Positions 3 to 17,367 of a stretch of 28,317 bases of DNA are shown here, in pieces. Each line of letters opens with the position of its first letter. The first letter of the stretch is position 1. The stretch spans positions 1-28,317 of IMG/VR virus record IMGVR_UViG_3300020477_000102; one strand, written 5' to 3'. The notes under the pieces are model-generated. The model was given only the letters and a program-made list of their open reading frames with translations. It ran no database searches and was not told where the DNA came from. A program made the position numbers and the translations under genes. The stretch comes from a virus.

Positions 3-194
3 CTAGAAGAAACATCTAAGTATATTGTTTCCAAAAATCCACACGACAAGAAGTGGTATGTTATGGGTCACGTTGGGAACAACAAATGGATGCCAGTTTC
101 TAATGGATTTAAAAACAAAACTCAAGCACAGAAGTGGGCGAAGAGCCAAGATAATGTGGACGCCGCTGCCCGTGGAGAAGTAGGTGCTGTATGA
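3..194 (+). CDS. Hypothetical protein, C-terminal fragment
   Basis: An open frame enters from the left edge and ends at TGA 192-194, giving 63 visible residues; the start lies outside the window. The fragment is basic and rich in Trp, Lys and Asn, with a compact core (KWYVMGHVG, then KWMPVSNGF) that reads like a small beta-rich domain followed by a helix (TQAQKWAKS). I do not recognise a function. Its stop overlaps the ATG of the next gene (ATGA at 191-194), so the two are probably translationally coupled. Confidence 0.75.
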   Translation, partial: LEETSKYIVSKNPHDKKWYVMGHVGNNKWMPVSNGFKNKTQAQKWAKSQDNVDAAARGEVGAV

Positions 195-1456
195 AAAAAT
201 TTAGCACATACTTGAAAGAGCCTACCAATGTAGGTCGTTATCTCATAGAGGTAAAACTCAAGCATTTAGAGCATTTGGAAGATGCTTTGTTTAATGCTGG
301 TTACGAAGGTGGAGTTGAGGCTCTACGTATGCTAGAAGAGATAATAGAAGCATTACAAGGAAATGCTACGAAGGGTATTAATATTCAGAGCAAAGTTGAT
401 GGTGCCCCATCAATCATTGCCGGAACCAATCCAGAAAATGGAAAATTCTTTGTAGCTACAAAAGCCTTATTCAACAAGACTCCAAAGATCAATTATACAG
501 ATGAGGATGTTGATGCTAATCACGGTCACGCCGCAGCCTTAGCCTCGAAGATGAAACTTGCTCTAAAGTATTTTCCTAAGCTGAAAATACCAGGAATATG
601 GCAGGGTGACTTTATGTTTGATTCTTCTGATTTAAGAAAAGAGACTATTGATGGAGAAAAGATGGTATCGTTTACTCCGAATACTATCACCTATGCGGTC
701 CCATTAGATCAACCTCTAGCTAAAAAAATTCTAAAAGCGAAAGTCGGTGTTATCTGGCACACTTCATATAATGGAAATACTATTGCGGATCTATCCGCAG
801 TATTCAAAGTAAATGTTCCGAGTCTAGCTAAAACGAGTGATGTGTGGGCCGGAGACACAGATTTTAACGATGTATCAGGTACCGCCACATTTACTCAAGC
901 AGAACATAAAGCGGTTTTGAAACGAATTGTGGACGCACGAGCATTTCTAAATCGATTGTCCAAGAAAGGAATGAAAATTCTTTTTGGAGATACCGATATA
1001 GCATATAACTTAAACATCTACATTAATGACTTGACCAGACAAGGTAATAAATTCTCAGGAAATAAACAAAAGGCTCTTGCTGGATACATCGATTTCACAA
1101 GAGCAAGATATAAAAAGATGGCGGATAAATTGAAATCTGCTAAAGCTAAAGAGAAGAAAATGGCTGAAGCGGAAGCGATAGTCAAAACACTCAATTCGGA
1201 CAGAAAAATTGGTGGTACTCTTGCGTGGGCGATGGAGTGGCACGATGTTGTTTCTGATATCAAATTAATGTTAATTAAGAAGATGGAACAAGTTAACAGT
1301 ATTCCAGCGTTTATGAAAACAGCAAGTGGATATGAAGTGACTGGTCCTGAGGGATTTGTTGCTGTAGATCATATGAGCAATAGTGCAATCAAGTTAGTAA
1401 ATAGATTGGAATTCAGTAGAAATAATTTTAACGCAATTAAGAGTTGGGGAAAATGA
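191..1456 (+). CDS. Ligase-type nucleotidyltransferase-like protein (KxDG family)
   Basis: This 421-residue protein has the landmarks of the covalent nucleotidyltransferase fold shared by ATP-dependent DNA and RNA ligases. A KVDG motif at 68-71 would hold the nucleotidyl-lysine (K68). A GIWQGDF segment at 135-141 sits where motif III belongs. Near the C-terminus, EGFV at 387-390 and AIKLVNR at 399-405 resemble motifs IV and V. About 245 residues, partly a Lys/Ala-rich helix (300-335), separate III from IV, far more than in ordinary ligases. The motif I arginine of DNA ligases is absent (KVDGAPS), so RNA-ligase-like chemistry or a degenerate enzyme is possible. It resembles marine-phage proteins annotated DUF6267, from memory. 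The N-terminus MKKFSTYLKEP resembles the T4 capsid-targeting sequence. The substrate is unknown. Confidence 0.75.
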   Translation: MKKFSTYLKEPTNVGRYLIEVKLKHLEHLEDALFNAGYEGGVEALRMLEEIIEALQGNATKGINIQSKVDGAPSIIAGTNPENGKFFVATKALFNKTPKINYTDEDVDANHGHAAALASKMKLALKYFPKLKIPGIWQGDFMFDSSDLRKETIDGEKMVSFTPNTITYAVPLDQPLAKKILKAKVGVIWHTSYNGNTIADLSAVFKVNVPSLAKTSDVWAGDTDFNDVSGTATFTQAEHKAVLKRIVDARAFLNRLSKKGMKILFGDTDIAYNLNIYINDLTRQGNKFSGNKQKALAGYIDFTRARYKKMADKLKSAKAKEKKMAEAEAIVKTLNSDRKIGGTLAWAMEWHDVVSDIKLMLIKKMEQVNSIPAFMKTASGYEVTGPEGFVAVDHMSNSAIKLVNRLEFSRNNFNAIKSWGK

Positions 1457-1659
1457 TTAATCATAAAATAGCTGGTTTAGCATTCGGAATATTAGGAGTC
1501 ATATTTTTGGTTCTAGAGAATTCACATATGGGACATTCAGACGGAATGGCTATGAGTCATTCTACAAGTTTTTTAGGTATGAGTGAAATGAGTTGGATGT
1601 GGTTTTCAATGGCAGTAGTACATTACTTAATTAAAGATTGTTCTTGCAAAGGAAAATAA
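1453..1659 (+). CDS. Small two-helix membrane protein with His/Met-rich loop
   Basis: The protein has 68 residues, starting at the ATG at 1453 that overlaps the upstream stop (ATGA); a start 9 bases earlier at 1444 is less likely. Two hydrophobic segments (about 5-22 and 47-58) flank a loop crowded with histidine and methionine (HMGHSDGMAMSH). The tail ends in CSCKGK. His/Met clusters next to a CxC are typical of copper- or other soft-metal-binding sites, but nothing here proves metal binding. Its stop overlaps the next start (TAATG at 1657-1661), so it belongs to the same operon as the flanking nucleotidyltransferases. Confidence 0.7.
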   Translation: MINHKIAGLAFGILGVIFLVLENSHMGHSDGMAMSHSTSFLGMSEMSWMWFSMAVVHYLIKDCSCKGK

Positions 1660-2681
1660 TGTTAACTTACGAAGAATATCTAGAGGAAGCTAAGAACAAA
1701 CCCGTAGTATTTACGTTCGGACGATTCAATCCCGTGACCAATGGACACGAAATAGCAGTTAATGATATTATCAAAAAAGCAAAGGGTGGAACCCCAATGA
1801 TATTTACTAGTCAGTCCCACGACAAGGACAGAAATCCTCTGACCTATAATGACAAGACAAAATATTTGAAGAAATTTTGGGGTAAAATGGTAGTGAAAGA
1901 TACCTCAATCAAAACTGCTTTTGATGCTCTTAGGTGGTTATCCGACAAAGGATATAAAGACGTAACATTGGTGGTAGGTTCTGACAGAGTAGCTAAATTC
2001 AGACAATATATCACTCCATATATCAAACATAAAGATAAGAGCAAGTCTTACGAATTTGACAAATTTGAGGTCATACAAGCTGGTGCGGCTCGTGGTAAAG
2101 GAAATGCTATGAGTGCTACGCTTATGAGAAAAGCCGCCAAAGATGGAGATTTTGAATTCTTCAGTAAGGGTGTTCCATCAATGTGTTCCAAAAGAGATGC
2201 AAGAGCAATGTATGATGATGTTCGAGATGGTATGGGTATTCGAGAGGAATATCTTGAATTTGGAACAAAGAAAACTACGAAAAAGTATAAAGAATGGACT
2301 CCCGGACAATCGTTTGTCGAGGAGATTACAAGTGTAGACTTAAAACAAGTAGAAGCATTTGCCGACAAGATTTTCGCCAAAGTCGGAATAGATGTGGAAT
2401 TTACTAGACATTTTTTAGAGAGAGTTAACGACAAGCGAAACGGAAAACAAATTAATGTCGCAGAATTGATCAGATTATTCAAGGAGACATACAAGAAACA
2501 CGGAAAGAATATACCTAAACTTGGTACGGATGCTCAAGCGGTGTTAAACGACACTCAAACAGACCTCAATCTTCCGTTTGTATTAAAATGGGATCGAAAA
2601 CTAGAAGTATTTGATCTTGTTTCCAAGACCATAATGCGTAAGAAAGATTTCAAAACCTCTAACCCCAAGTTAAAAGTATAA
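1659..2681 (+). CDS. HxGH-type cytidylyl/adenylyltransferase-like protein
   Basis: This protein has 340 residues from the ATG at 1659, preceded by AAAGGA. The upstream in-frame ATG at 1638 lies inside the previous gene and has no ribosome site. Residues 16-165 form a Rossmann nucleotidyltransferase: FGRFNPVTNGHE at 20-31 carries the HxGH-equivalent, VVGSDR is at 105-110, and MSATLMR at 151-157 matches the ISSTxxR signature. The family includes NMN/nicotinate adenylyltransferase and phosphopantetheine adenylyltransferase; the substrate here cannot be told. Residues about 225-335 form a second domain (TRHFLERVND, then PKLGTDAQAVL) that I recall from marine T4-like phages without a known function. 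The first 11 residues, MLTYEEYLEEA, closely match the capsid-targeting start of T4 internal proteins. Confidence 0.8.
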   Translation: MLTYEEYLEEAKNKPVVFTFGRFNPVTNGHEIAVNDIIKKAKGGTPMIFTSQSHDKDRNPLTYNDKTKYLKKFWGKMVVKDTSIKTAFDALRWLSDKGYKDVTLVVGSDRVAKFRQYITPYIKHKDKSKSYEFDKFEVIQAGAARGKGNAMSATLMRKAAKDGDFEFFSKGVPSMCSKRDARAMYDDVRDGMGIREEYLEFGTKKTTKKYKEWTPGQSFVEEITSVDLKQVEAFADKIFAKVGIDVEFTRHFLERVNDKRNGKQINVAELIRLFKETYKKHGKNIPKLGTDAQAVLNDTQTDLNLPFVLKWDRKLEVFDLVSKTIMRKKDFKTSNPKLKV

Positions 2682-2684
2682 ATA
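2677..2684 (+). promoter_or_regulatory. T4-type late promoter motif TATAAATA
   Basis: An exact TATAAATA overlaps the stop codon of the nucleotidyltransferase gene and lies 15 bases before the lipoprotein ATG at 2700. T4 late promoters consist of this octamer alone, read by gp55 with the sliding clamp. The transcript would begin around 2690, leaving a leader of about 10 bases that just contains the AAAGG ribosome site. The motif is short enough to arise by chance in AT-rich DNA, but four of the exact copies sit directly upstream of genes. Confidence 0.5.
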
Positions 2685-2699
2685 GTAAGTAAAGGTACA

Positions 2700-2915
2700 A
2701 TGCAAAAAATGCTGTTATTTGTTATGATGACGGCGATATGGATGGTTGCTAGTTGCACACCTAGGATGGATAGTAATGGATGTTATGGATACTGGTATGA
2801 CCCAGGCTTAAAACGAGGAACACTATTAAAAAATCAAAATTATATCAGTCCATATAGACAATGCGTGGACGATGATAAAATTCATTTAGATAAAGGACGA
2901 AAACCCTACGGTTGA
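2700..2915 (+). CDS. Small putative lipoprotein
   Basis: The protein has 71 residues. A hydrophobic signal (residues 4-18) ends in VASC, a plausible lipobox with lipidated Cys19, followed by a polar mature region with Cys28 and Cys54 and many Tyr, Asp and Lys. It would be exported and anchored in the Gram-negative envelope. AAAGG lies 5 bases before the ATG, and a TATAAATA late-promoter motif lies just upstream. I do not recognise a family. Lysis accessory or host-surface modification are possible roles, neither supported beyond the signal sequence. Confidence 0.65.
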   Translation: MQKMLLFVMMTAIWMVASCTPRMDSNGCYGYWYDPGLKRGTLLKNQNYISPYRQCVDDDKIHLDKGRKPYG

Positions 2916-2916
2916 T

Positions 2917-3012
2917 ATGTTTACAGGTTGGGAAAAACTTTTTTGGATAGGGATAGCAATACTAGGTATATGTCTAGCGTATACTTGGAGACTAGAAGCA
3001 GTAATGTTATGA
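2917..3012 (+). CDS. 31-residue single-span membrane peptide
   Basis: A short open frame, ATG 2917 to TGA 3010-3012, encodes 31 residues: MFTGWEKLFW, then a hydrophobic stretch (about residues 8-22) and a short tail TWRLEAVML. It begins one base after the upstream lipoprotein stop. It ends in an ATGA overlap with the best start of the kinase gene at 3009, as at the other junctions of this operon. The hydrophobicity and exact junctions argue for a real peptide, although no strong ribosome site precedes it and no family is recognised. Confidence 0.45.
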   Translation: MFTGWEKLFWIGIAILGICLAYTWRLEAVML

Positions 3013-3956
3013 AATTTAAGAATTATGCCCAATTAGATGAGAAGTTAATCTTAATATCTAACGGTAAAAAATACGGACAGGTTGTTTTTCTAGTGGGTGG
3101 TGCTGGATCTGGTAAAGGATTCGCATTATCTAATTTTCTAGAAAAAGAGAAGTTCAAGGTACGTGATGTTGATGAATGGAAGAGATTATTGCTAAAAATA
3201 TCTATGCTGACCCGTGATCCAGAAGGCTGGGCTCAAATGCAGACCCACGCTTCCTTTATTGATCCAGAGAAATATAAACCCCTAAAGAATCTCGATTTGA
3301 GAAAGCCTGAGGATGTGTTTAAATTTCATAAGATTGTCGATGATATGGGAATCAAATCAAAGACTTTGGATGCTTTATTAGACAATGCTACTGGAAAAGA
3401 TAAAGGAACGCTACCCAATATACTCTTTGATATGACGGGTAAAAGTCTCGATGAATTTGCTAAATTTATGCCGAAACTTCTGAATACGGGGTATAATCCT
3501 GCGAATATTCACATTGTATGGGTTTTGACCAATTATTCAATAGCATTATCCAACAACTTAGATCCAAAGAGAGGTCGAGTTGTACCAGAAGACATACTGC
3601 TTAAAACTCATAAGGGGACTTCCGAGACAATGTTTGACTATATACAGAGTAAGGGGAAGAAACTTGCAATTAATGGTCAGATACACGTAATACTAAATAA
3701 TAGAGAGAATACCATATTTTATGGTAGTACAATGAAAAAAGAGCGGATATCTGCTATTACTGGTAAGAAAAATGATGGTGTCATAAAGGATTTCAAATAT
3801 TTGACCCTAAAAGAACGGGGTAAACCTATGATGCCAGCTAAAAAAATTCAGAATCAATTGTATAAGTGGATTGTAGATAACATTCCTACAGGAGATTTAC
3901 TGAAGAGCCTCATAGACAGAGGTGTTAAACAAAGCAAACGTAAACCTAAAAGGTGA
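3009..3956 (+). CDS. P-loop kinase-like ATPase
   Basis: This protein has 315 residues from the ATG at 3009. I prefer this start to 2928 because the extra 27 residues of the longer frame overlap another small gene and read as unstructured, while ATG 3009 overlaps the upstream stop (ATGA). The Walker A loop GGAGSGKG is at 30-37 after a beta strand (QVVFLVG), an acidic Walker B-like segment ILFDMTGK is at 138-145, and an arginine-rich lid-like segment KRGRVVPED is at 187-195. This resembles zeta-toxin/polynucleotide-kinase-type small-molecule or nucleic-acid kinases. The substrate is unknown. Its place behind a ligase-like and an HxGH nucleotidyltransferase gene hints at nucleotide or nucleic-acid end processing (inference). 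Confidence 0.75.
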   Translation: MKFKNYAQLDEKLILISNGKKYGQVVFLVGGAGSGKGFALSNFLEKEKFKVRDVDEWKRLLLKISMLTRDPEGWAQMQTHASFIDPEKYKPLKNLDLRKPEDVFKFHKIVDDMGIKSKTLDALLDNATGKDKGTLPNILFDMTGKSLDEFAKFMPKLLNTGYNPANIHIVWVLTNYSIALSNNLDPKRGRVVPEDILLKTHKGTSETMFDYIQSKGKKLAINGQIHVILNNRENTIFYGSTMKKERISAITGKKNDGVIKDFKYLTLKERGKPMMPAKKIQNQLYKWIVDNIPTGDLLKSLIDRGVKQSKRKPKR

Positions 3957-3958
3957 TT

Positions 3959-4276
3959 ATGACTAAAAAAGAATTAGTAAAGCGATTGGAAGAAGGCCCG
4001 GTTAGAGTAATTATTGATGGAAAACTCCGTCAGTTGACTCGCAAAGCCGCTAATTCCGAACAGAAGGCTAAATACAAATCGTTAGATGAAGGATCTAACA
4101 TTGGTGTCTGGGATATGGGTATCGCAGGTATTACAACAATTACAGCCAAATCAGTTGAAACTATGATTGGATACGGCTTAAATACTGAGCCATCTGGTGG
4201 AACTGTTGAACCTGTAACTGATGGAGATATAGGAGATCCTCAGTCTGGTGAAAATGCAGGTGTAAAAAGTGAATAA
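3959..4276 (+). CDS. Hypothetical protein, 105 residues
   Basis: The ATG at 3959 has AAAAGGTG just upstream; a GTG at 3953 that overlaps the kinase stop would add two residues. A charged N-terminal helix (TKKELVKRLEEG) and a short strand-rich piece (VRVIIDGKLRQL) are followed by a Lys-rich linker. A Gly/Ile-rich segment (GIAGITTITAKS) and an acidic, Gly/Pro-rich tail come last. No family is recognised. It overlaps the following 999-residue gene by 8 bases and is probably co-translated with it. The low-complexity tail suggests a structural or scaffold-associated protein rather than an enzyme. Confidence 0.65.
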   Translation: MTKKELVKRLEEGPVRVIIDGKLRQLTRKAANSEQKAKYKSLDEGSNIGVWDMGIAGITTITAKSVETMIGYGLNTEPSGGTVEPVTDGDIGDPQSGENAGVKSE

Positions 4277-7268
4277 AACACAAAAAGAAATTCTCGCCTC
4301 TTCAGAAGAAGATATAATGACTCCAGAGGAATGGGAATTTGCTACAGACAAATTCAAAGATATTAGGAAGGAACCTAAAATGAAAACCGCTACACGATTC
4401 AAACAATATCGAAATGAAATTCACGAAGGGGTATCTGGACCTACCCGAATGGAAATACAAAAATTTTTCGATAAACAAAAAGGAACTCAGAGAGCCAGAT
4501 TAAACAAAACAGCGGAGCGTTTTAATATTCGTGATGTTATTGTTAATGCTAAAGGTACAGTAGTGGGCTATAAAATATCAGAAGACGAGGTAGACGAAAA
4601 ACACGGTGGTCCCCATTATGCAGGTTCCAGACACAAGAAAATTGAGAGAGACAAATATAGAAAGAGAAAAACTTGGTCAGCAATGCAAGATGATAATGAC
4701 CCAGAACTTGAAGAAGGTACTGTACTTCAAATAACAGATGTTGACAAATGGACTACAGAAATTTACAAAGGATTAAAGGCTGGATGGAAATCAGTCGCAA
4801 AATCTACTCTAGGTGGTGATGAAAATGTAGCCATAATGATAAAGGTTACAGTAGAACCAGAGAAGGACTGGCCGAATAAGATATTACATAATGCAAGTTT
4901 TGGTATGATCCGTATTGCTACGGATGGTACAATGGAAATGTTTGCTTCTGGACATAAGATAAAAAATATGCGAAAGACTAAGGTCAAGTCCGCCAAAGAT
5001 GTAGTAAGTAAAATTAACAAGTGGCTTAGCACAATTGATGTTCAGGAAGTATATTCTGAAGGTAAATCAGCATACGACAAAGAAATCGCCGCATTTCTCG
5101 CAAAAGGTGGAACAATCAAAAAACTCAAAGTTTCCAAAAAAGATGTCGAGAAAGTAGCTAAACAGTTTCGGAAGAAATATAAGACTATGCAACAAAAAGA
5201 AATTGAGTTGGATATAAAAGACAAATTGGAAAGGGAAAAGAATAAAGAGAAAGACGAAGATTTAGAAGCCGAAGCTAAATTAAAGAAGAAGAAACAGAAA
5301 GGCGACCGAGAATTTGCATTCGGAATATCAAGAAAAGGTGGATCTGGAGCTGGTAGAGGATATGGTAAAAGAGGTGGAGGTCCTATTGTGATGGGAGAAG
5401 AAGTCACCGAAAAAGATTACGATGCTCTAAAGAAGGGCGATATCATTACAATAGACTTCAAATCCTCTATGTCTTCTGGTAAAGCTACTTTTAAAGTAAC
5501 AGCAAAAAATGTGGTTAATAAGGGTAAAGTAGGAAAGGTCACATTAAAAGATGTTAAAAGACCTGGAGGTGTCAAATTTTACTTGTACAAGAGAGGTAAC
5601 AAAGTATCTCTTGCTCAAGGAGATATGGCGGCATCCGTTGTGAAATACACAGTAGAACACCTTGAACTTACAGAAGCAAAAATATTAAAGACCGGCACAA
5701 AAGTAAGAGTTCCACATCCTGCAAAAGGTAAGGGAATGGTAACAGGGAAAATTGTTAGATATGATAAAGGAGGCGGTGGATACAGTCCATTTTATGTTGT
5801 AGATATCGGTGAATATAAGTCTGAGAAAATTCCTGCTCACAAAATTCAAACAGAAGAAATACAAGGAAATTCGGTTACTATGAGAGAAGGATATGAAAAG
5901 GCTGTGCTACTCAGTCTAGAAGACGAAGGAATTGACGGTTATTTTGATAATGGAAAAGTAGTTGTTTCTAAAAGGGATGTAAAGAGAGCCAAAGCTGTCC
6001 TCGATGATGATCCTGATATTCGCAGAACTCCAAAAATTGTTGGAGAAGCCGTAACAATCTTTGAAGTGCTTAAAACTAAAGACAAGTCCGTAATAGATTC
6101 TTTCTATGACCAGAAACCCAAAGAAGGGAGATTGATGTCTACTGATGGTAAGACCCTAGAGAAAATGGGTATGGGTGGACAAGAAATAGCGAGATGGGTG
6201 AACGGTAAGATTAAGATTACCGCAGTAAGTGATGTTAAATCAACCGAAACTATTCTCAAATATATGAAAGCCTCTATCCCTAAGAATAACTTTGAAGAAT
6301 TTGTAAACGAGAGAGATTATCGAAAAGAATACGATAACTACCAAGGTAAGCCTGAACAAATCGCTAGACGGTCCTCACGTAATCAAGCAAGGAGAATTAT
6401 GGGAGACAAAGCTGAAGAAGGTAAGGATGTAGGTCATAAGGATAACAATCCTATGAATAATGATCCTAAGAATCTACGAAACGAAGATCCATCCAAGAAT
6501 CGAAGAGAACCTCGATTGAGGAAAAAGATGGAATCATTTGTGGGATTTGCTACAGAATCAGTAAGAAATGATATACATAATGGTTCAATTATGGCTGGAA
6601 TTGAATTAGAAAAATATGCAAAGAAGAGTGGCGGAATCGACAAAGCTGATATGCTGGCTACAGCCGCTATTCTGAAGAAGGGAAAATTACCTCCCGTAAG
6701 TAAAATTCCAGATGATACAGATCCAAGAGACAAGGTTTATTCGATAATTGGAAAACATCTTAACAAGAAATATCTCAAAAAATATAAGGGTGATTCTCCT
6801 TCATTCGATTCATATTTGAAAGAACAATGGGAGCTTGATGAACGCAAATTAACTCCTACTGAAATCAAGCGCCGAGAAGAGATTGCTCAGGAACTAGATG
6901 ATGATAAGTTTAAAAAGCGTTATGGAGATGATTGGAAAAGCGTTAAGATGGGTGTCGCCACGAATATGGCTAAAAAGGAGTCATTCGATGTGTGGTTTGA
7001 AGCACGGTATAAATACAAAATAGACCACAAGACTTACACCTCTGCTGTGGAAGAAGCCCTCCTGGTAGCAGATAAAGCAGGTTATGAAGTTGATATGGAT
7101 GATTATTTTAATCAGATAGCAACTGGACCTCGCAAACCGAGCGAAGGTAAGACGAATACCTTTAAGATCGGCTTGGAAAAAGGAGGGAAAGAGCAGAAAA
7201 AGAGACTTCAAATCCAAATTTACGGTAAAGGTAAACACGGATATGAATTGAATTGTTACATCCAATAA
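4269..7268 (+). CDS. 999-residue modular protein with HNH-like segment
   Basis: The start is a GTG overlapping the upstream stop, with AGGTG eight bases before; an in-frame ATG at 4317 is an alternative. The chain is a string of small domains. Residues 83-260 are mixed alpha/beta. Residues 270-345 are a very charged helix or coiled coil. Residues 378-463 and 466-530 are SH3/KOW-like beta units (KTGTKVRVPH). Residues 541-590 resemble a DUF2007-like module (AVLLSLEDEGIDGYF). Residues 683-750 are an HNH-like motif (DVGHKDNNPMNNDPKNLR). Residues 905-999 are a C-terminal module I recall from marine T4-like phages. Linkers between modules repeatedly end in hydrophobic-x-E followed by G, A or S. The motif [FY]xx[FY]xxE occurs at 44, 675, 757 and 846. 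It may be an internal head polyprotein (inference). Confidence 0.75.
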   Translation: MNKTQKEILASSEEDIMTPEEWEFATDKFKDIRKEPKMKTATRFKQYRNEIHEGVSGPTRMEIQKFFDKQKGTQRARLNKTAERFNIRDVIVNAKGTVVGYKISEDEVDEKHGGPHYAGSRHKKIERDKYRKRKTWSAMQDDNDPELEEGTVLQITDVDKWTTEIYKGLKAGWKSVAKSTLGGDENVAIMIKVTVEPEKDWPNKILHNASFGMIRIATDGTMEMFASGHKIKNMRKTKVKSAKDVVSKINKWLSTIDVQEVYSEGKSAYDKEIAAFLAKGGTIKKLKVSKKDVEKVAKQFRKKYKTMQQKEIELDIKDKLEREKNKEKDEDLEAEAKLKKKKQKGDREFAFGISRKGGSGAGRGYGKRGGGPIVMGEEVTEKDYDALKKGDIITIDFKSSMSSGKATFKVTAKNVVNKGKVGKVTLKDVKRPGGVKFYLYKRGNKVSLAQGDMAASVVKYTVEHLELTEAKILKTGTKVRVPHPAKGKGMVTGKIVRYDKGGGGYSPFYVVDIGEYKSEKIPAHKIQTEEIQGNSVTMREGYEKAVLLSLEDEGIDGYFDNGKVVVSKRDVKRAKAVLDDDPDIRRTPKIVGEAVTIFEVLKTKDKSVIDSFYDQKPKEGRLMSTDGKTLEKMGMGGQEIARWVNGKIKITAVSDVKSTETILKYMKASIPKNNFEEFVNERDYRKEYDNYQGKPEQIARRSSRNQARRIMGDKAEEGKDVGHKDNNPMNNDPKNLRNEDPSKNRREPRLRKKMESFVGFATESVRNDIHNGSIMAGIELEKYAKKSGGIDKADMLATAAILKKGKLPPVSKIPDDTDPRDKVYSIIGKHLNKKYLKKYKGDSPSFDSYLKEQWELDERKLTPTEIKRREEIAQELDDDKFKKRYGDDWKSVKMGVATNMAKKESFDVWFEARYKYKIDHKTYTSAVEEALLVADKAGYEVDMDDYFNQIATGPRKPSEGKTNTFKIGLEKGGKEQKKRLQIQIYGKGKHGYELNCYIQ

Positions 7269-7979: not shown

Positions 7980-8268
7980 AGAATTCTATGAGGACATTAA
8001 TAGAATTAAGTACATTAAGCGCCTGATATCCAAATACGTAGATACAGGAAAACTCAAGAGTCGGCTGTTAATGAATCACTTGTTGGTTCTAATTAATGTT
8101 TTTGGATCATTTGCTTGTACACGTATATTGATGTATAAAATAGATCCGAAAAATCACGAGATTATTGCGACTTTTCTTGATGAGTTAAAAGCATTAACTC
8201 CAGAATTAAAATCTTTATTTACGATAGACAAAAAAGTGAGATCCATCATAAGGGAAGAATTGAAATGA
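7939..8268 (+). CDS. Conserved T4-like marine phage protein, 109 residues
   Basis: The frame is open from 7876, but I choose ATG 7939 (MATHYNDRQG). This N-terminus and the following EEFYEDINRIKYIKRLISKY match a small protein I recall from many marine T4-like myoviruses, where it begins at that methionine. The protein is helical, with a hydrophobic segment LLVLINVFGSFACTRILMYK at about 53-72 that is a buried core or weak membrane segment, and a charged C-terminal helix. It sits in the block of virion-associated genes. The function is unknown to me. The gene lacks an obvious ribosome site and ends in an ATGA overlap with the next. Confidence 0.7.
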   Translation: MATHYNDRQGSVSEEFYEDINRIKYIKRLISKYVDTGKLKSRLLMNHLLVLINVFGSFACTRILMYKIDPKNHEIIATFLDELKALTPELKSLFTIDKKVRSIIREELK

Positions 8269-9023
8269 ACCCAAAATTTAGAAAAACATATCCCGGTAAG
8301 GGTTGGGTATACGGTACCGACGATCAGCCGCCAAACCCTAAGAAGAAAGATATTATATGGATATCACAGGTACATCGTTGGGATTCTGAAGTAAGAAGTC
8401 CCAATACTAGATTTATCATAATGAAAAAGAAAGGTAAATTTAGTATGTATGCTATAGACGATAAAGAGGGACACATATTATTCCATTTCGGGGACAAGAA
8501 AGATTATGAATCTGCAAGAGAGTTTGCGTCCATTAGAAAATGGAGACAATCTACCAGTATGAAAGAAGAGGTCATACTAAACGAAGTTAGTGCCAAGACG
8601 GTTAAAGGTGCGGGCTCCGCCGCGTTGGACTTGTATTTTGTATACAAGTTCGCTAAGTTTATTGCTATGGAATGGACCGACTGGCCGGCTTATAAATTAG
8701 GAATTATCGATGATGAAGGTAAGATCATTGATAAACAACGCAATACGGCAGAAAAGAAATTTGCTTATACATTATTTCATCGCCTTCTTAGAAATTTGAA
8801 AAGATTAATAGAGAAGGTACCTGGAATGAAAAGCAAACTTAGCAAAGCCGTTGCCGCATATTTTCTATTTAAAGAGCATTGTGTACAAAACGGTGCAGAT
8901 GGAGATATGTTAGACGAAGAATTTCGTAAATATATAAATGAAAATATGCCGCTTTATGAATCAATGCAAATTGATGTATTGATGAAACAGCATATATTAT
9001 TGGAGAAGGTGAAATATGAGTAA
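8265..9023 (+). CDS. Conserved T4-like marine phage protein, 252 residues
   Basis: It starts at ATG 8265 overlapping the upstream stop (ATGA), with AGGGAAG ten bases before. Residues 1-95 are a Lys/Trp/Asp-rich domain of probable beta character (RFIIMKKKGKFSMYAID). Residues about 100-230 are helical (AYTLFHRLLRNLKRLIEKVP, then AVAAYFLFKEH). The helical half resembles a protein I recall from cyanophages near the internal or structural genes, with no assigned function. No catalytic motif is seen. The final codons overlap the following gene by 8 bases. Confidence 0.65.
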   Translation: MNPKFRKTYPGKGWVYGTDDQPPNPKKKDIIWISQVHRWDSEVRSPNTRFIIMKKKGKFSMYAIDDKEGHILFHFGDKKDYESAREFASIRKWRQSTSMKEEVILNEVSAKTVKGAGSAALDLYFVYKFAKFIAMEWTDWPAYKLGIIDDEGKIIDKQRNTAEKKFAYTLFHRLLRNLKRLIEKVPGMKSKLSKAVAAYFLFKEHCVQNGADGDMLDEEFRKYINENMPLYESMQIDVLMKQHILLEKVKYE

Positions 9024-9584: not shown

Positions 9585-10607
9585 ATGGACTATATTGACT
9601 CAAAATACATCGGAATTCTAGGTGTTCGATTAGAACAATTCAAAAAGAAGGGTAAAGCCCTCTGGAACTTCAGATGTCCTTTCTGTGGCGATTCAGCCAA
9701 AGACAAATTAAAATCTCGTGGCTACATCTTTGAAAATAAAGGAGATGTACTGTATAAATGTCATAACTGTGGAATAGCTACTGGATTGACCCAATTAATC
9801 AATCACATAGCACCTACCCTAAAACGAGAGTATATTCTAGAGAAATATAGACACAGCCCATCTTCTAGGAAATCGATAAAAAAGACTGAAGACTTCTTTA
9901 AGACGAATAAGGCTCCAGCAATCAAAGCCAATCCCCTCAAACATCTCACTTGTCTGGATTTATGTGATGTTAATCATCCAGCACGAGCATATATAAGACA
10001 AAGACAAATCCCCTCCCATCAAATTTCGAGACTGTTTTATACAGAGACTTTTAAAGAATGGACTAATACGATTGTCAAAAATAAATTCAAAGACATTAAA
10101 AAAGACGAAGGGAGAATTGTTATTCCGTTCTTTGATAAAGATGATAATTTAATTGCATTTCAGGGCCGGTCACTTGATGAAAATAACCCTTTACGTTATA
10201 TAACCATAAAGGTTACAGAAGACGAATGTAAGATATTTGGATTAGACAAAATAGACGAATCGAAACCTGTATTTGTTGTAGAAGGACCCATAGATTCATT
10301 GTTTCTAGATAATGCAATTGCAATGGCCGGGAGCGACCTGTCTAATTCTTGTAATCTAAATAGTGATACAAAATTTGTTATTGTAATGGATAACGAAAAT
10401 CGAAATAGAGAGATAGTCAAAAAAATTGAAGGGTTTATAAAAAGAGGATATTCGGTATGTATTTGGGATGAGAAAATCCAACAGAAAGATATAAACGATA
10501 TGGTTCTTTCTGGTATGAGTCCAGAAGATATACAGGCTTCTATTGTAGCAAATACATTTGAAGGATTACAAGCGACTTTAGCTTTAAATAATTGGAAACG
10601 TGTATGA
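9585..10607 (+). CDS. 61: DNA primase (T4 gp61-like)
   Basis: This is the primase subunit of the T4-type primosome, which makes RNA primers for lagging-strand synthesis with the gp41 helicase. Its 340 residues match gp61 in length and layout. An N-terminal zinc ribbon has CPFC at 31-34 and CHNC at 59-62. A central RNA-polymerase domain includes RIVIPFFDKDDNLIAFQGR at 177-195. The TOPRIM core has VVEGPID with catalytic-type E233 and a downstream VIVMDNE with D269. No ribosome site precedes ATG 9585, consistent with the near-leaderless transcript predicted from the promoter. Its stop overlaps the next start (ATGA). The assignment is firm. Confidence 0.93.
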   Translation: MDYIDSKYIGILGVRLEQFKKKGKALWNFRCPFCGDSAKDKLKSRGYIFENKGDVLYKCHNCGIATGLTQLINHIAPTLKREYILEKYRHSPSSRKSIKKTEDFFKTNKAPAIKANPLKHLTCLDLCDVNHPARAYIRQRQIPSHQISRLFYTETFKEWTNTIVKNKFKDIKKDEGRIVIPFFDKDDNLIAFQGRSLDENNPLRYITIKVTEDECKIFGLDKIDESKPVFVVEGPIDSLFLDNAIAMAGSDLSNSCNLNSDTKFVIVMDNENRNREIVKKIEGFIKRGYSVCIWDEKIQQKDINDMVLSGMSPEDIQASIVANTFEGLQATLALNNWKRV

Positions 10608-11353
10608 GTGGTGGAAAAAGTGTAGCAACAAAATCAAGATGGAAGTCTCCTGATAAGTTTTTCCCCGTTGCTGTGGATAACTTTTTTGAAAATCCGGAGG
10701 CTATTGTAAAGTATGCGAAAAAATTACCCTTTCAATCGACAGGAAGACATCCAGGTAAGAGAACACGAAATTTATGGGAAATCAATAAGGATCTTCATAC
10801 TGCGATATTATTGAAAACCTTAAGTTGCTACTATGACCTTGATTATCAGAGTATAGAGTGGGAATCCAGCATTATGGAATTTACTGAAATTCCACGATAT
10901 GCTAAGGATAAAAATGATGTTAGAAATAAAGGTTGGATACACCAAGATGTAGCTATACTAGGTAATGATGATTTAGCGGGATTGATATATCTCACACCAG
11001 ATATTGATCCTGATTCTGGTACATCATTATGGACTTTAAAGCCTGATGCGAAAGTGATAATAAACGCAGAAGAAGAGTGGTCCGCACCGGGACAAGGAGA
11101 AGAGTATGCAAAACAGTATTTAAAACAACAGGAAAATCTAGTAGAAAAATTCAGATTTCAGAATTTCTTTAATCGACTAATAATGTATGATACTAATGAA
11201 TTTCACGGTGCAAATAGCTATTGGAATGATGTTAATAAAGATCCGAGATTAACTTTAGTGTTCTTTATAGGAGGAATAGTGTCAAGTGGAGACTATCCTT
11301 TGAGAAGAGTGAAAAGCGGAGAATTTGATAAAATAATTAATACTCTTACATAA
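10604..11353 (+). CDS. 2OG-Fe(II) oxygenase-like protein (DUF6445-like)
   Basis: It has 249 residues from ATG 10604, which overlaps the primase stop; the in-frame ATG at 10592 lies within primase and is less likely. The facial triad of 2-oxoglutarate/Fe(II) dioxygenases is visible as H113-Q-D115 (WIHQDVAILG) and H201 (NEFHGAN). R215 (PRLTLVFF) is the likely 2OG-binding arginine. Strand SGTSLW and the cupin-like spacing fit. The N-terminal FFPVAVDNFFENPEA and the GRHPGKRTRNLW segment are those I associate with DUF6445. It would hydroxylate a protein or small molecule, target unknown. It is followed with a one-base overlap by a DUF6065-like gene, which suggests a working pair. Confidence 0.75.
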   Translation: MSGGKSVATKSRWKSPDKFFPVAVDNFFENPEAIVKYAKKLPFQSTGRHPGKRTRNLWEINKDLHTAILLKTLSCYYDLDYQSIEWESSIMEFTEIPRYAKDKNDVRNKGWIHQDVAILGNDDLAGLIYLTPDIDPDSGTSLWTLKPDAKVIINAEEEWSAPGQGEEYAKQYLKQQENLVEKFRFQNFFNRLIMYDTNEFHGANSYWNDVNKDPRLTLVFFIGGIVSSGDYPLRRVKSGEFDKIINTLT

Positions 11354-13851: not shown

Positions 13852-16800
13852 ATGAGTGAAGAACCCCAACAAGTTATTCAAGAAGACATATTTAAATATG
13901 ATCCGATTACCGAATGGAATAATCTAGTAATCGAATTCGGAATGCCGTCTACGGATGGTAACCTGCGACTTACTGAAATCTGTTTGGCTGCCGAATCTTG
14001 TCTAGAAGCCTCCAATAACGCTACAAAATTATCTTTTACAGATATCGCCTTTGAACCAGCAAGATTCTCTCCTGTTCAAAAAATCATAAGAACTCTTTTT
14101 GGAGAAGAAACTGGTATAGAGATAGAAACTTACGCGGCTGTAGAAGCTGGAGTTGCGTATTTTATGAGTCCTCCCGTTTCAGTTGATATTGCTATATTAG
14201 AAAAACATTGGGCAGTAGAAGTTATCAATCAAAAAATGGATATTGGTTTTCAGCCCGTCTATAAAGATATCTGGACAGATCCTTATGAAGAAAAACTCGT
14301 AAGAAATGCTACCTGGCATCGAAGATGGACAATGAATCCACTTGCAGTCGGAAATGTTGTGAGGGGTAATAGACCTATTACCGGTAATTGGGATACTGAT
14401 GGAGAACCATATTGGGAAATAACTTGGGAAGCAATCGATGTGGGTAAGTGTAGTTATGGTGGAGCTAATGATCAGTTATCTTGTGAATCAACACAGATTC
14501 CAGGAGGTGGATTTTGCAGACAGGCAGACTTTGATCAACCTCGTGTTGCTAGTGGACAATACACAGCCACCTGTACAGATCCTCAATACACGACAAGAAC
14601 AACCTGTATGAATTCCACCATATCATTTTGTTCTGATCCACAATGGGTAACTCAAAATGATTGTGAAAGTCAAATACCACCAGAAACTTGGACAACGACC
14701 AATGCGGGAAATACTTGGCAAGTACATCATCAAGTGTATAATGATGTAGAGGAACTTCTCCCGATAACTGAAAGTCTTTGCGAAGGAATATATGGTGGTG
14801 GAACTTGGTGGTCTTCTCAGAATTATAGTGGTGGTGATTTGATTCCTGGAAAATGCTATTACACTCATCCATCTTACAGTTATCAATGGTATGTCCACTC
14901 CCAGATTGAAACAAGAGAAGAATGTATGGTCACAGCCTCCACTTGGACAAACTGGGATCCATACTATAGAATGTGGATAGAACAAACTAATGCGTGGACA
15001 CAAGAATATGCAAAATGGAGACCATCTCAGTCAACTATGAATTATCATAAACATTATAATATATTAACCCACGATAATCATAGAAAATGGCCAGGAGTTC
15101 ACGTAACAGATATACACAATATGATGGGTACCACGCATCGAATGTATTATTATGATGTTGGTGGTAGTTGGGGTAATGGTCCAGAAGTTGGTCGATCTTC
15201 TATTGCAACTTGGGTTACTAACACATTTGACTGGCCGGACAATGATCATACCTTTGATTATTGTTACGATTCAGGATGGAATCCAATTCCTGAATGGTCT
15301 CCTCCTGCTTATAACGATCAAGGAGCAGCCTGTGAAGCCTCAGGAACTTGTAGTGATGCTACATTTGATAATAGAGAAGCCGAGTGTATCGCTCCACATC
15401 ATTGTTCAGATGGTAGCGGAATGAATGAGAGTGATTGCGTAAATCATCATCATTGTAGTAATTCAGCCTTTAGCGACAGTTCCTCCTGCACAAATGCAGG
15501 TATATGTTCCGTAACTATTTGCTTTGGTAGTTGGGGATGTCACACCTTTCCTGCAAGTAATTACAGTGGCAATCCTTCTGGTTGTGCCGCAATTGGAGGT
15601 TCATACTCCTATCACGGATATACTTGGAATAATTCAGGATATACGTGGGATCAGACACATACTTGGACAGATGATAATTATCAATGGTCGACTCAAGTCC
15701 CGTATATTGAAGTTGATGTTCCACCAGATCCTGAATATTACTGGAATCTTTCATTTCCAGCACACACATTTGTAAATACTAACGACAGTATGATTGGAGC
15801 TGAATATGGATATTCTAATGTATCTTCAGGACAACAACCGAATTTTTCTAAGATTCGATGGAAACCACCTCAATATAATTCCGATGAGTGGGATAAAACT
15901 TATTTCAGACCTGATAAATTTAGAATTTATCGTGCTCCTTATTTTTCTCCACTTAATTTGCAATTAACAGATTCCGATTACGAAGCAGATATGTGGAAAC
16001 TTGCAGGAGAAGTTATATGTACTGATGATTCAGCTTACCATTATTTTTATGATTCTCGGGAAGATATGATGAAAGAAAATTTAGCCGCTTTCCAAGGAGC
16101 ATATTATGCTATTACCGCAGTATGGGAAGATTGGAATTACAAAAGAGGATGGAAACTTGACCGATTTGATGGTCTGTCTGGAGTATCGTGGGATCCTCGA
16201 TATAATCAAAGTTGGTCATCTTATGTTACCTTAACTCATCCGCAAGGTTCACAATATGGTACCTATAGAGTTAATGGAACTTGCTCCAGTTATAATACCA
16301 CATATATGGATCAAGCATCTTGTGAAGCCGCTGGTACTTGTTCTGATAATACTTGGACAGATGAAGCAACCTGTATAGTCAATGGAACCTGTTCTAATAA
16401 TTGGAATACAGGTGGAGGCTGGCCGTGGACTAATCAAACAGATTGTGAAAATGGTGGATATTGTAGTGGAAACTCTAATTATCACAATAATCGATCTGGC
16501 TGTGAATACTGGGGTACCTGTGGGAATGCTACTTATAACAATAATAAAGCGGGATGTCTACAATGGGGAATGTGTTCCGATTCTCAGTATAATAATCAAG
16601 GAGAAGCAATGTGTTTAGGAGCTTCAGGATGGTGTACTAATGGAACGTATGTCACTCTAGAATCTTGTGAAAACGCAGGAGCACAATGGAATTCCAATAA
16701 TAGTTGGAGTGCAACGTATAACTGGTGGCCGAGTTACACTTGGTATCAAGAAACTTGGAGCCTAAATACTTGGAGCAATTCTGGTTATTGGTGGATCACT

Positions 16801-17367
16801 GGATCCTGGAGTGGTAATTATAACAATGTTAGTTTAGGTGAGGTTGAGAATTGGCTAAACGGTGGAGGTCCATCTTGGTCAGATAACGTAAATGCCATTA
16901 AAATAAGTAGTATGGGATCATATAGAACTTATAGAGCATCGGGATATTTCAAAGCACCTGTAACTGGAACATACACTTTTGAAATTAAATCTGATGATGC
17001 TTCTTATATGTGGATGGGTGCTAATGGTCAAGATATGTACTACTTGGTCAACTGGAGAGATGAGCAAAATTATCTATGTGCCGCTCCAGGCCAGCACGGT
17101 GATAGAATTCATTTTGGACAAATCTATCTTACAGAAGGACATATATATCCTATGCTTGCTTATCAAGAAAATACCCAAGGACCAGGCTCTTTTGAACTTG
17201 CAATGAAGATTCCAAGTGGAGCTTGGAATGGTAACTCAGGTGATGAATGGAAATATGTAGCCCCTTATGTAATGCCTGGAGACGAGATTCCGACTGCAAT
17301 AGGAGATGGACAAACAGTAGAGGGTAAATGGGCGGCAACCTCTGTTTATGCTTATTATACTGACTGA
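13852..17367 (+). CDS. Large Cys/Trp-rich structural protein with PA14-like domain (putative fibre/adhesin)
   Basis: The chain has 1171 residues. Residues 1-160 are a unique N-terminal domain, perhaps virion attachment. Residues 200-275 carry the first Cys motifs (CTDPQYTTRTTC; CSDPQWVTQNDC). Residues 490-580 and 811-940 are dense arrays in which Cys pairs alternate between C-x5-C and C-x(10-17)-C spacing, e.g. 824, 830, 841, 847 and 865, 871, 884, 890, 902, 908. Aromatic ladders (YTW/HTW/YQW) occur at 590-612 and 952-982. Residues about 995-1125 match a PA14 domain (YFKAPVTGTYTFEIKSDDAS; IYLTEGHIYPMLAY), a carbohydrate-binding fold. It is likely a tail fibre, baseplate or surface adhesin that contacts the host. 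A near-late motif CATAAATA lies 9 bases upstream. Confidence 0.75.
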   Translation: MSEEPQQVIQEDIFKYDPITEWNNLVIEFGMPSTDGNLRLTEICLAAESCLEASNNATKLSFTDIAFEPARFSPVQKIIRTLFGEETGIEIETYAAVEAGVAYFMSPPVSVDIAILEKHWAVEVINQKMDIGFQPVYKDIWTDPYEEKLVRNATWHRRWTMNPLAVGNVVRGNRPITGNWDTDGEPYWEITWEAIDVGKCSYGGANDQLSCESTQIPGGGFCRQADFDQPRVASGQYTATCTDPQYTTRTTCMNSTISFCSDPQWVTQNDCESQIPPETWTTTNAGNTWQVHHQVYNDVEELLPITESLCEGIYGGGTWWSSQNYSGGDLIPGKCYYTHPSYSYQWYVHSQIETREECMVTASTWTNWDPYYRMWIEQTNAWTQEYAKWRPSQSTMNYHKHYNILTHDNHRKWPGVHVTDIHNMMGTTHRMYYYDVGGSWGNGPEVGRSSIATWVTNTFDWPDNDHTFDYCYDSGWNPIPEWSPPAYNDQGAACEASGTCSDATFDNREAECIAPHHCSDGSGMNESDCVNHHHCSNSAFSDSSSCTNAGICSVTICFGSWGCHTFPASNYSGNPSGCAAIGGSYSYHGYTWNNSGYTWDQTHTWTDDNYQWSTQVPYIEVDVPPDPEYYWNLSFPAHTFVNTNDSMIGAEYGYSNVSSGQQPNFSKIRWKPPQYNSDEWDKTYFRPDKFRIYRAPYFSPLNLQLTDSDYEADMWKLAGEVICTDDSAYHYFYDSREDMMKENLAAFQGAYYAITAVWEDWNYKRGWKLDRFDGLSGVSWDPRYNQSWSSYVTLTHPQGSQYGTYRVNGTCSSYNTTYMDQASCEAAGTCSDNTWTDEATCIVNGTCSNNWNTGGGWPWTNQTDCENGGYCSGNSNYHNNRSGCEYWGTCGNATYNNNKAGCLQWGMCSDSQYNNQGEAMCLGASGWCTNGTYVTLESCENAGAQWNSNNSWSATYNWWPSYTWYQETWSLNTWSNSGYWWITGSWSGNYNNVSLGEVENWLNGGGPSWSDNVNAIKISSMGSYRTYRASGYFKAPVTGTYTFEIKSDDASYMWMGANGQDMYYLVNWRDEQNYLCAAPGQHGDRIHFGQIYLTEGHIYPMLAYQENTQGPGSFELAMKIPSGAWNGNSGDEWKYVAPYVMPGDEIPTAIGDGQTVEGKWAATSVYAYYTD

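Follow-up and report, generated by a model that had tools for sequence, protein, structure and literature searches.

The window that we analysed, the whole stretch of 28,317 nt (28.3 kb), is a virus fragment from a marine T4-like myovirus, and it opens with a run of genes whose products carry the motif [FY]xx[FY]xxE beginning at residue 4, or a degenerate form of it, a short N-terminal element that we call the tag (Table 1). A 124-kb IMG/VR contig, IMGVR_UViG_3300020478_000003, referred to here as the sister contig, is near-identical to the window (99-100% for the proteins searched). A 253-residue ORF at 10592-11353 of the window is missing at the matching place in this contig, and because of that absence we regard the two as different strains. 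A preliminary description of the window had picked out two tagged enzymes, a ligase-like protein and an HxGH transferase. Both stand, but the tagged ORF upstream of them had been overlooked, and a third tagged enzyme, kinase-like, had been missed. Further downstream, at 13852-17367, lies an ORF of 1171 residues in which Cys and Trp are abundant and C-x-x-x-G-x-CSD-like stretches are repeated.

Table 1. Tagged genes, tags, joins and candidate cut sites in the window and, in the last four lines, tagged genes of the sister contig (a slash marks a join or candidate cut; numbers after residues are protein positions).
Feature	Position	Strand	Remarks
Small tagged ORF, 3' part	3..194	+	complete sister-contig copy starts MKKFSKYLEEASKYIV
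DUF6267 protein, 421 aa, KxDG-type nucleotidyltransferase-like, N-terminal tag	191..1456	+	PF19782 E=3e-99
Tag FSTYLKE, residues 4-10 of DUF6267 protein	200..220	+	
YLIE20/V, likelier gp21-type cut, adjoins DUF6267 domain	239..250	+	
Cytidylyltransferase/NMNAT-like protein (HxGH), 340 aa, C-terminal extra domain	1659..2681	+	PF01467 above cut-off; phrog_3041
Tag YEEYLEE/A, residues 4-10 of transferase	1668..1688	+	
SFVEE junction before transferase C-terminal domain	2310..2324	+	
P-loop/zeta-toxin-like kinase	3009..3956	+	PF06414 E=3e-6; alignment
Degenerate kinase tag FKNYAQLDE/K	3015..3041	+	alignment with relatives
Mosaic protein, 999 aa, about nine small modules	4269..7268	+	
Tag FKQYRNEIHE53/G54	4398..4427	+	N-terminal in a relative (L257)
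Join HLELTE469/A	5658..5675	+	
Join and tag FEEFVNE681/R before HNH-like module	6291..6311	+	
FVGFATE763/S at join	6537..6557	+	weak P3 (Ala)
FDSYLKE852, then WELDE858/R before KRYG module	6804..6842	+	
FDVWFE911/A before C-terminal module	6984..7004	+	
252-aa fusion	8265..9023	+	VILNE107 (8571-8585) precedes phrog_2086-type domain
Tagged sister-contig gene	94454		starts MLKFRSFIPEG
Tagged sister-contig gene	95764		starts MKKFSKYLEEA
Tagged sister-contig genes	95973 and 97420		one small untagged ORF in between
Tagged gene directly upstream of gp21, sister contig	60617		begins MSLIKFGDYLDE

The ligase-like protein belongs to DUF6267, in whose family alignment K68-x-D70-G71 is invariant, and the label "ligase-like" is plausible. 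Direct proof of a ligase was sought and given up: a sequence search of the PDB returned nothing relevant, and a structure search gave no match with E<0.001, ligases and capping enzymes being frequent among its top matches. Residues 1-26, which include the tag, are predicted to be unstructured (pLDDT<50) and to lie outside the folded domain. The preliminary description had placed the cut after LKE10, which is doubtful; because Pro would occupy P1' there, LIE20/V is the likelier site. Close homologs that lack the 10-residue insert read MKRFGKYLTE/VKLKHLEH, and fused DUF6267 genes in four related loci (L026, L050, L097 and L099) retain the tag at the join.

The transferase frame is also opened by an upstream TTG at 1638. 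We took the ATG at 1659 as the start, the TTG being unlikely because homologs begin at the tag, and the protein would be cut at LEE10/A. Relatives carry a full internal tag (FSDFIKE, FTDYLKE, YKEYIAE or FSDYLVE) before the C-terminal domain, and this domain is found free-standing as Melnitz gene 31, with the tag-like start LKTFLQFEQS. A PDB search with the transferase gave no match. The kinase ORF was called as 342 residues from a TTG at 2928; its true start is probably at 3009 (MKFKNYAQLDEKL). Kinase relatives start MERFKNYLVEQ, MKKFSEFITEQ and similar, and the predicted cut of the window protein is LDE11/K. Profile searches with the kinase gave only weak adenylate-kinase P-loop matches.

The capsid-targeting sequence (CTS) of phage T4 is known, reportedly, from the work of Mullaney and Black. 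The T4 internal proteins IPII and IPIII begin MKTYQEFIAEA (NC_000866), just as the preliminary description had quoted. According to a review of Black's work (PMC9026906), mutagenesis of the IPIII CTS indicates that residues 4 and 7 mainly decide targeting and residues 8 and 10 processing, and the gp21 protease cuts after L/I-x-E. These four key positions are also those of the marine tag, so that the claimed register of the T4 internal proteins is borne out: both window enzymes have F or Y at positions 4 and 7, with LKE (DUF6267) and LEE (transferase) as the processing residues. Like the CTS of IPII and IPIII, the marine tag is a ten-residue N-terminal element.

In a non-redundant set of 1,260 ORFs taken from related IMG/VR loci, 72 (5.7%) have the motif starting at residue 4, a share that is not a genome average because the loci were collected via tagged families. 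Internal positions of the same ORFs carry it at 0.051%, giving a ~113-fold enrichment at residue 4, and few ORFs have it at neighbouring positions. Where both residues 4 and 7 are F or Y, Glu follows at residue 10 in 76% of cases and I, L, V, M or F at residue 8 in 83%; the corresponding figures for internal F..F pairs are 8% and 30%. The tag is conserved among homologs that have little else in common at the N-terminus. When T4 and T4-like genomes were scanned in the same way the motif was present near the N-terminus, in ~1-4% of ORFs for the T4-like genomes, while none of the 213 ORFs of three T7-like podoviruses (HTVC025P, P-RSP2 and KM23C739) and lambda had it there. To our knowledge, none of these four control phages has a T4-type gp21. 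The motif is thus strongly N-terminus-specific in these marine T4-like phages, and it co-occurs with gp21. The chance rate is ~5e-4 per residue, and since the window holds two extra internal copies (at 220 in the 252-residue ORF and at 148 in a 191-residue ORF), the bare motif can also arise elsewhere.

The modules of the 999-residue mosaic protein are found again, differently arranged, in related contigs. Four motif copies reported within it (FKQYRNE at 44-50, FEEFVNE at 675-681, FVGFATE at 757-763 and FDSYLKE at 846-852) are indeed there, where shuffling gives an expectation of 0.38 (p about 2e-4); with those of the two enzymes, all six copies claimed for the window lie at the residues given. 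Doubt attaches to the exact cut sites in three cases, namely LKE10 with its Pro, FKQYRNE with Arg and FVGFATE with Ala. Because the Arg of FKQYRNE falls at P3, IHE53/G54 is the likelier cut; the module beginning at G54 follows IHE53 in the window and EVEE in a relative (L258) in which homology begins at G54. The HNH-like module (682-751) matches free-standing proteins of 71-74 residues from T7-like phages, which are untagged and start, with MTRNYRKEY or MRDYRSEY, exactly at 682. In two T7-like marine podoviruses, the gene for the small HNH-like protein comes immediately after that for the scaffolding protein (L268, 1507-1731; L269, 598-816). Other mosaics have LTEA, LAEA or VDEA before the C-terminal module. 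The best candidates for cuts in the 999-residue protein would be E53, E469, E681, E858 and E911, with E763 a weak one.

A signal shorter than the motif is more general at such joins. We looked for [LIVMF]xE from -14 to +3 of non-redundant internal module starts in relatives, with the expectation taken from the same proteins as per-family sums, and found it at 77 of 90 against about 20 expected, a count to be read with the caveat that the Glu before a module could in some families be part of the domain. The preliminary description had the motif recurring inside the 999-residue protein. The full motif marks some joins only; we take the gp21 consensus [LIV]xE to be the more general join signal. 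The phrog_2086-type domain of the 252-residue fusion is likewise free-standing elsewhere, in Melnitz and HTVC008M.

A gp21-type prohead protease (S77) is encoded in the sister contig (PF03420, E=9e-43; phrog_207), from which we read it; the window fragment ends short of the gp21 region. Of the 135 ORFs of the sister contig, five have the N-terminal motif: four lie in one block, and the fifth immediately precedes gp21. The block (92996-106386) lies between a gp41-type helicase and the gp61 primase, a placement common to the methylotroph phage Melnitz and the Pelagibacter phage HTVC008M and found also in S-SM1 and S-SZBM1. T4 has in the same interval, between genes 41 and 61, gene 61.1 (L272, 18966-19130), whose product begins with the CTS-like MKTFKEFIKED. 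The T4-like late promoter TATAAATA was considered as support for late expression and dropped, as it shows no enrichment in the window.

Tagged homologs were detected in virions of three cyanophages, S-CREM2, S-SZBM1 and S-SM1, by published proteomics. The virion list of S-CREM2 holds 52 of 219 proteins (PMC10665884, Table 3). Four S-CREM2 proteins have the motif at residue 4, namely gp6 (a SAM hydrolase), gp14 (an APH-like kinase), gp136 and gp154 (a cytidylyltransferase homologous to the window transferase), and all four are in that list (4/4 against 52/219, p=0.003). Mass spectrometry favours long proteins, and a length-matched comparison makes the association weaker: it gives p=0.10 among proteins of at least 200 residues and p=0.12 among those of at least 230, or 0.03 and 0.05, respectively, without annotated structural proteins. 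A relaxed tag pattern was rejected: with it, four proteins that were short or unlikely came in and the association became weaker (five of nine in the virion list, p=0.04). The listed virion protein gp13 is near-tagged (MKDLHSFLTEQ). The list also includes gp12 (L261, 7704-10313), annotated as Cas9-like, whose near-tag is FASFMAE/A at 19-25. The adjacent gp13 and gp14 were likewise detected in virions.

In S-SM1 the cytidylyltransferase T4-GC190, detected in virions (PMC3037559), is tagged (MKKFSAFLNEA), as is the virion-detected one of S-SZBM1 (gene 140, MRFRQFIIEA; PMC9146016). The short S-SZBM1 virion list, of 30 proteins, holds one of the three tagged proteins of this phage; the small tagged proteins 191 and 192 are not in it. 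The untagged DUF6267 homologs S-CREM2 gp87 and S-SZBM1 gene 141 are absent from the respective lists. The earlier proposal that tagged proteins are packaged finds support, as far as these lists extend, for tagged homologs, among them homologs of the window transferase; for the DUF6267 protein it is the tag that suggests packaging, because the homologs in the phages with virion lists are untagged and undetected.

Our conclusion, which we hold to be likely, is that the motif is a T4-type signal for capsid targeting and processing, and that these phages have extended the CTS/gp21 cargo system to enzymes and probably to cleavable mosaics. In every feature that can be judged from sequence, the system is the same as that of T4. 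While the head is being assembled, the F/Y-x-x-F/Y patch (residues 4 and 7) would dock the protein on the prohead core; on head maturation the phage's gp21 would cut the adjoining hydrophobic-x-E site. In this way the tagged enzymes (DUF6267, NMNAT/cytidylyltransferase-like and kinase-like) would become internal virion proteins, and would most likely enter the cell together with the DNA. Packaging of the tagged enzymes is well supported by homology; we infer that it holds in the window's own phage, that a gp21-type protease performs the cleavage, and that the tagged proteins are injected into the host. Since the signals persist at module joins, gp21 would be expected to cut a packaged mosaic precursor there and so release separate small proteins. 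The fuller proposal, that the mosaics are cargo polyproteins loaded by a tag, cut at [LIV]xE by the protease and injected, with modules shuffled together with their own cut sites, we consider evenly balanced.

A serious competitor for the mosaics, to which we would give rather less than an even chance, is that the enzymes bear a true CTS while the internal hydrophobic-x-E sites are acidic linkers or relics of fusion, so that the 999-residue protein stays whole. Acidic linkers such as EEVELDE are indeed common in mosaics, several joins are without the F..F part, and two of the four sites listed in the preliminary description have Ala or Arg at P3. The excess of [LIVMF]xE at joins argues against this, as does the fact that full tags are retained at some joins and that the same modules occur free-standing elsewhere with N-terminal tags. 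That the motif could be an amphipathic helix docking on the membrane, the polymerase or the replisome, with detection in virions due to contamination, seems to us improbable. The S-CREM2 authors themselves (PMC10665884) raise possible carry-over in CsCl preparations, and the tagged genes do lie between the replication genes gp41 and gp61; yet the register and key residues equal those of the T4 CTS, the S-CREM2 virion list contains no replication proteins, the gene beside gp21 is tagged, and the cut region of T4 gp23, around residue 65, itself reads FGSFLTE/A (within AFGSFLTEA in NC_000866). As for chance, a loose motif chosen by eye might be suspected from the two further internal copies in the window, but the positional enrichment, the empty control phages and the conservation of the tag where N-termini of homologs otherwise differ leave this explanation refuted.

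Like the T4 internal proteins, the proposed marine cargo is associated with a gp21-family protease (in the sister contig) and includes unrelated small proteins with only the tag in common. Unlike them, it includes large enzymes (nucleotidyltransferase-, cytidylyltransferase- and kinase-like), long mosaic proteins contain the tag or cut site internally as well, and most tagged genes lie in the one gp41-gp61 block. A further parallel comes from phiKZ and SPN3US, whose ejection proteins are cut by gp175-type proteases at S/A-x-E; as described in the available text of PMC5694885 and PMC9026906, these phages likewise have virion cargo, a gp21-related protease, short x-E motifs and multiple cut sites, but several of their propeptides are more than 100 residues long, unlike short F..F tags, and no modular polyprotein cargo is described there. 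Virion-associated NMNAT/cytidylyltransferases and kinases are reported for S-CREM2, S-SZBM1, S-SCSM1 and S-SM1, in the portions of these papers available, homologs of the window transferase having been found by mass spectrometry; those portions mention no targeting tag and leave contamination possible. A literature search that took in few subscription papers found neither a marine CTS nor a prohead-cut polyprotein.

Some of the T4 internal proteins are counter-defence factors (PMC9391042): IPI blocks a restriction system, and there is a natural E. coli host in which IPIII is required. By analogy, the marine cargo might possibly serve early take-over or counter-defence, which is a guess. If the mosaics are cut in the head, they would represent a polyprotein strategy of which the literature that we found makes no mention, and a naturally occurring collection of packaging signals. 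Reading a ten-residue tag in the sequence would be enough to predict the proteins that a marine T4-like phage brings into its host, a testable rule that bears on why NAD-type transferases, kinases and SAM hydrolases turn up in cyanophage virions. If the rule holds, many uncharacterised genes of abundant ocean phages could be given a location in the virion.
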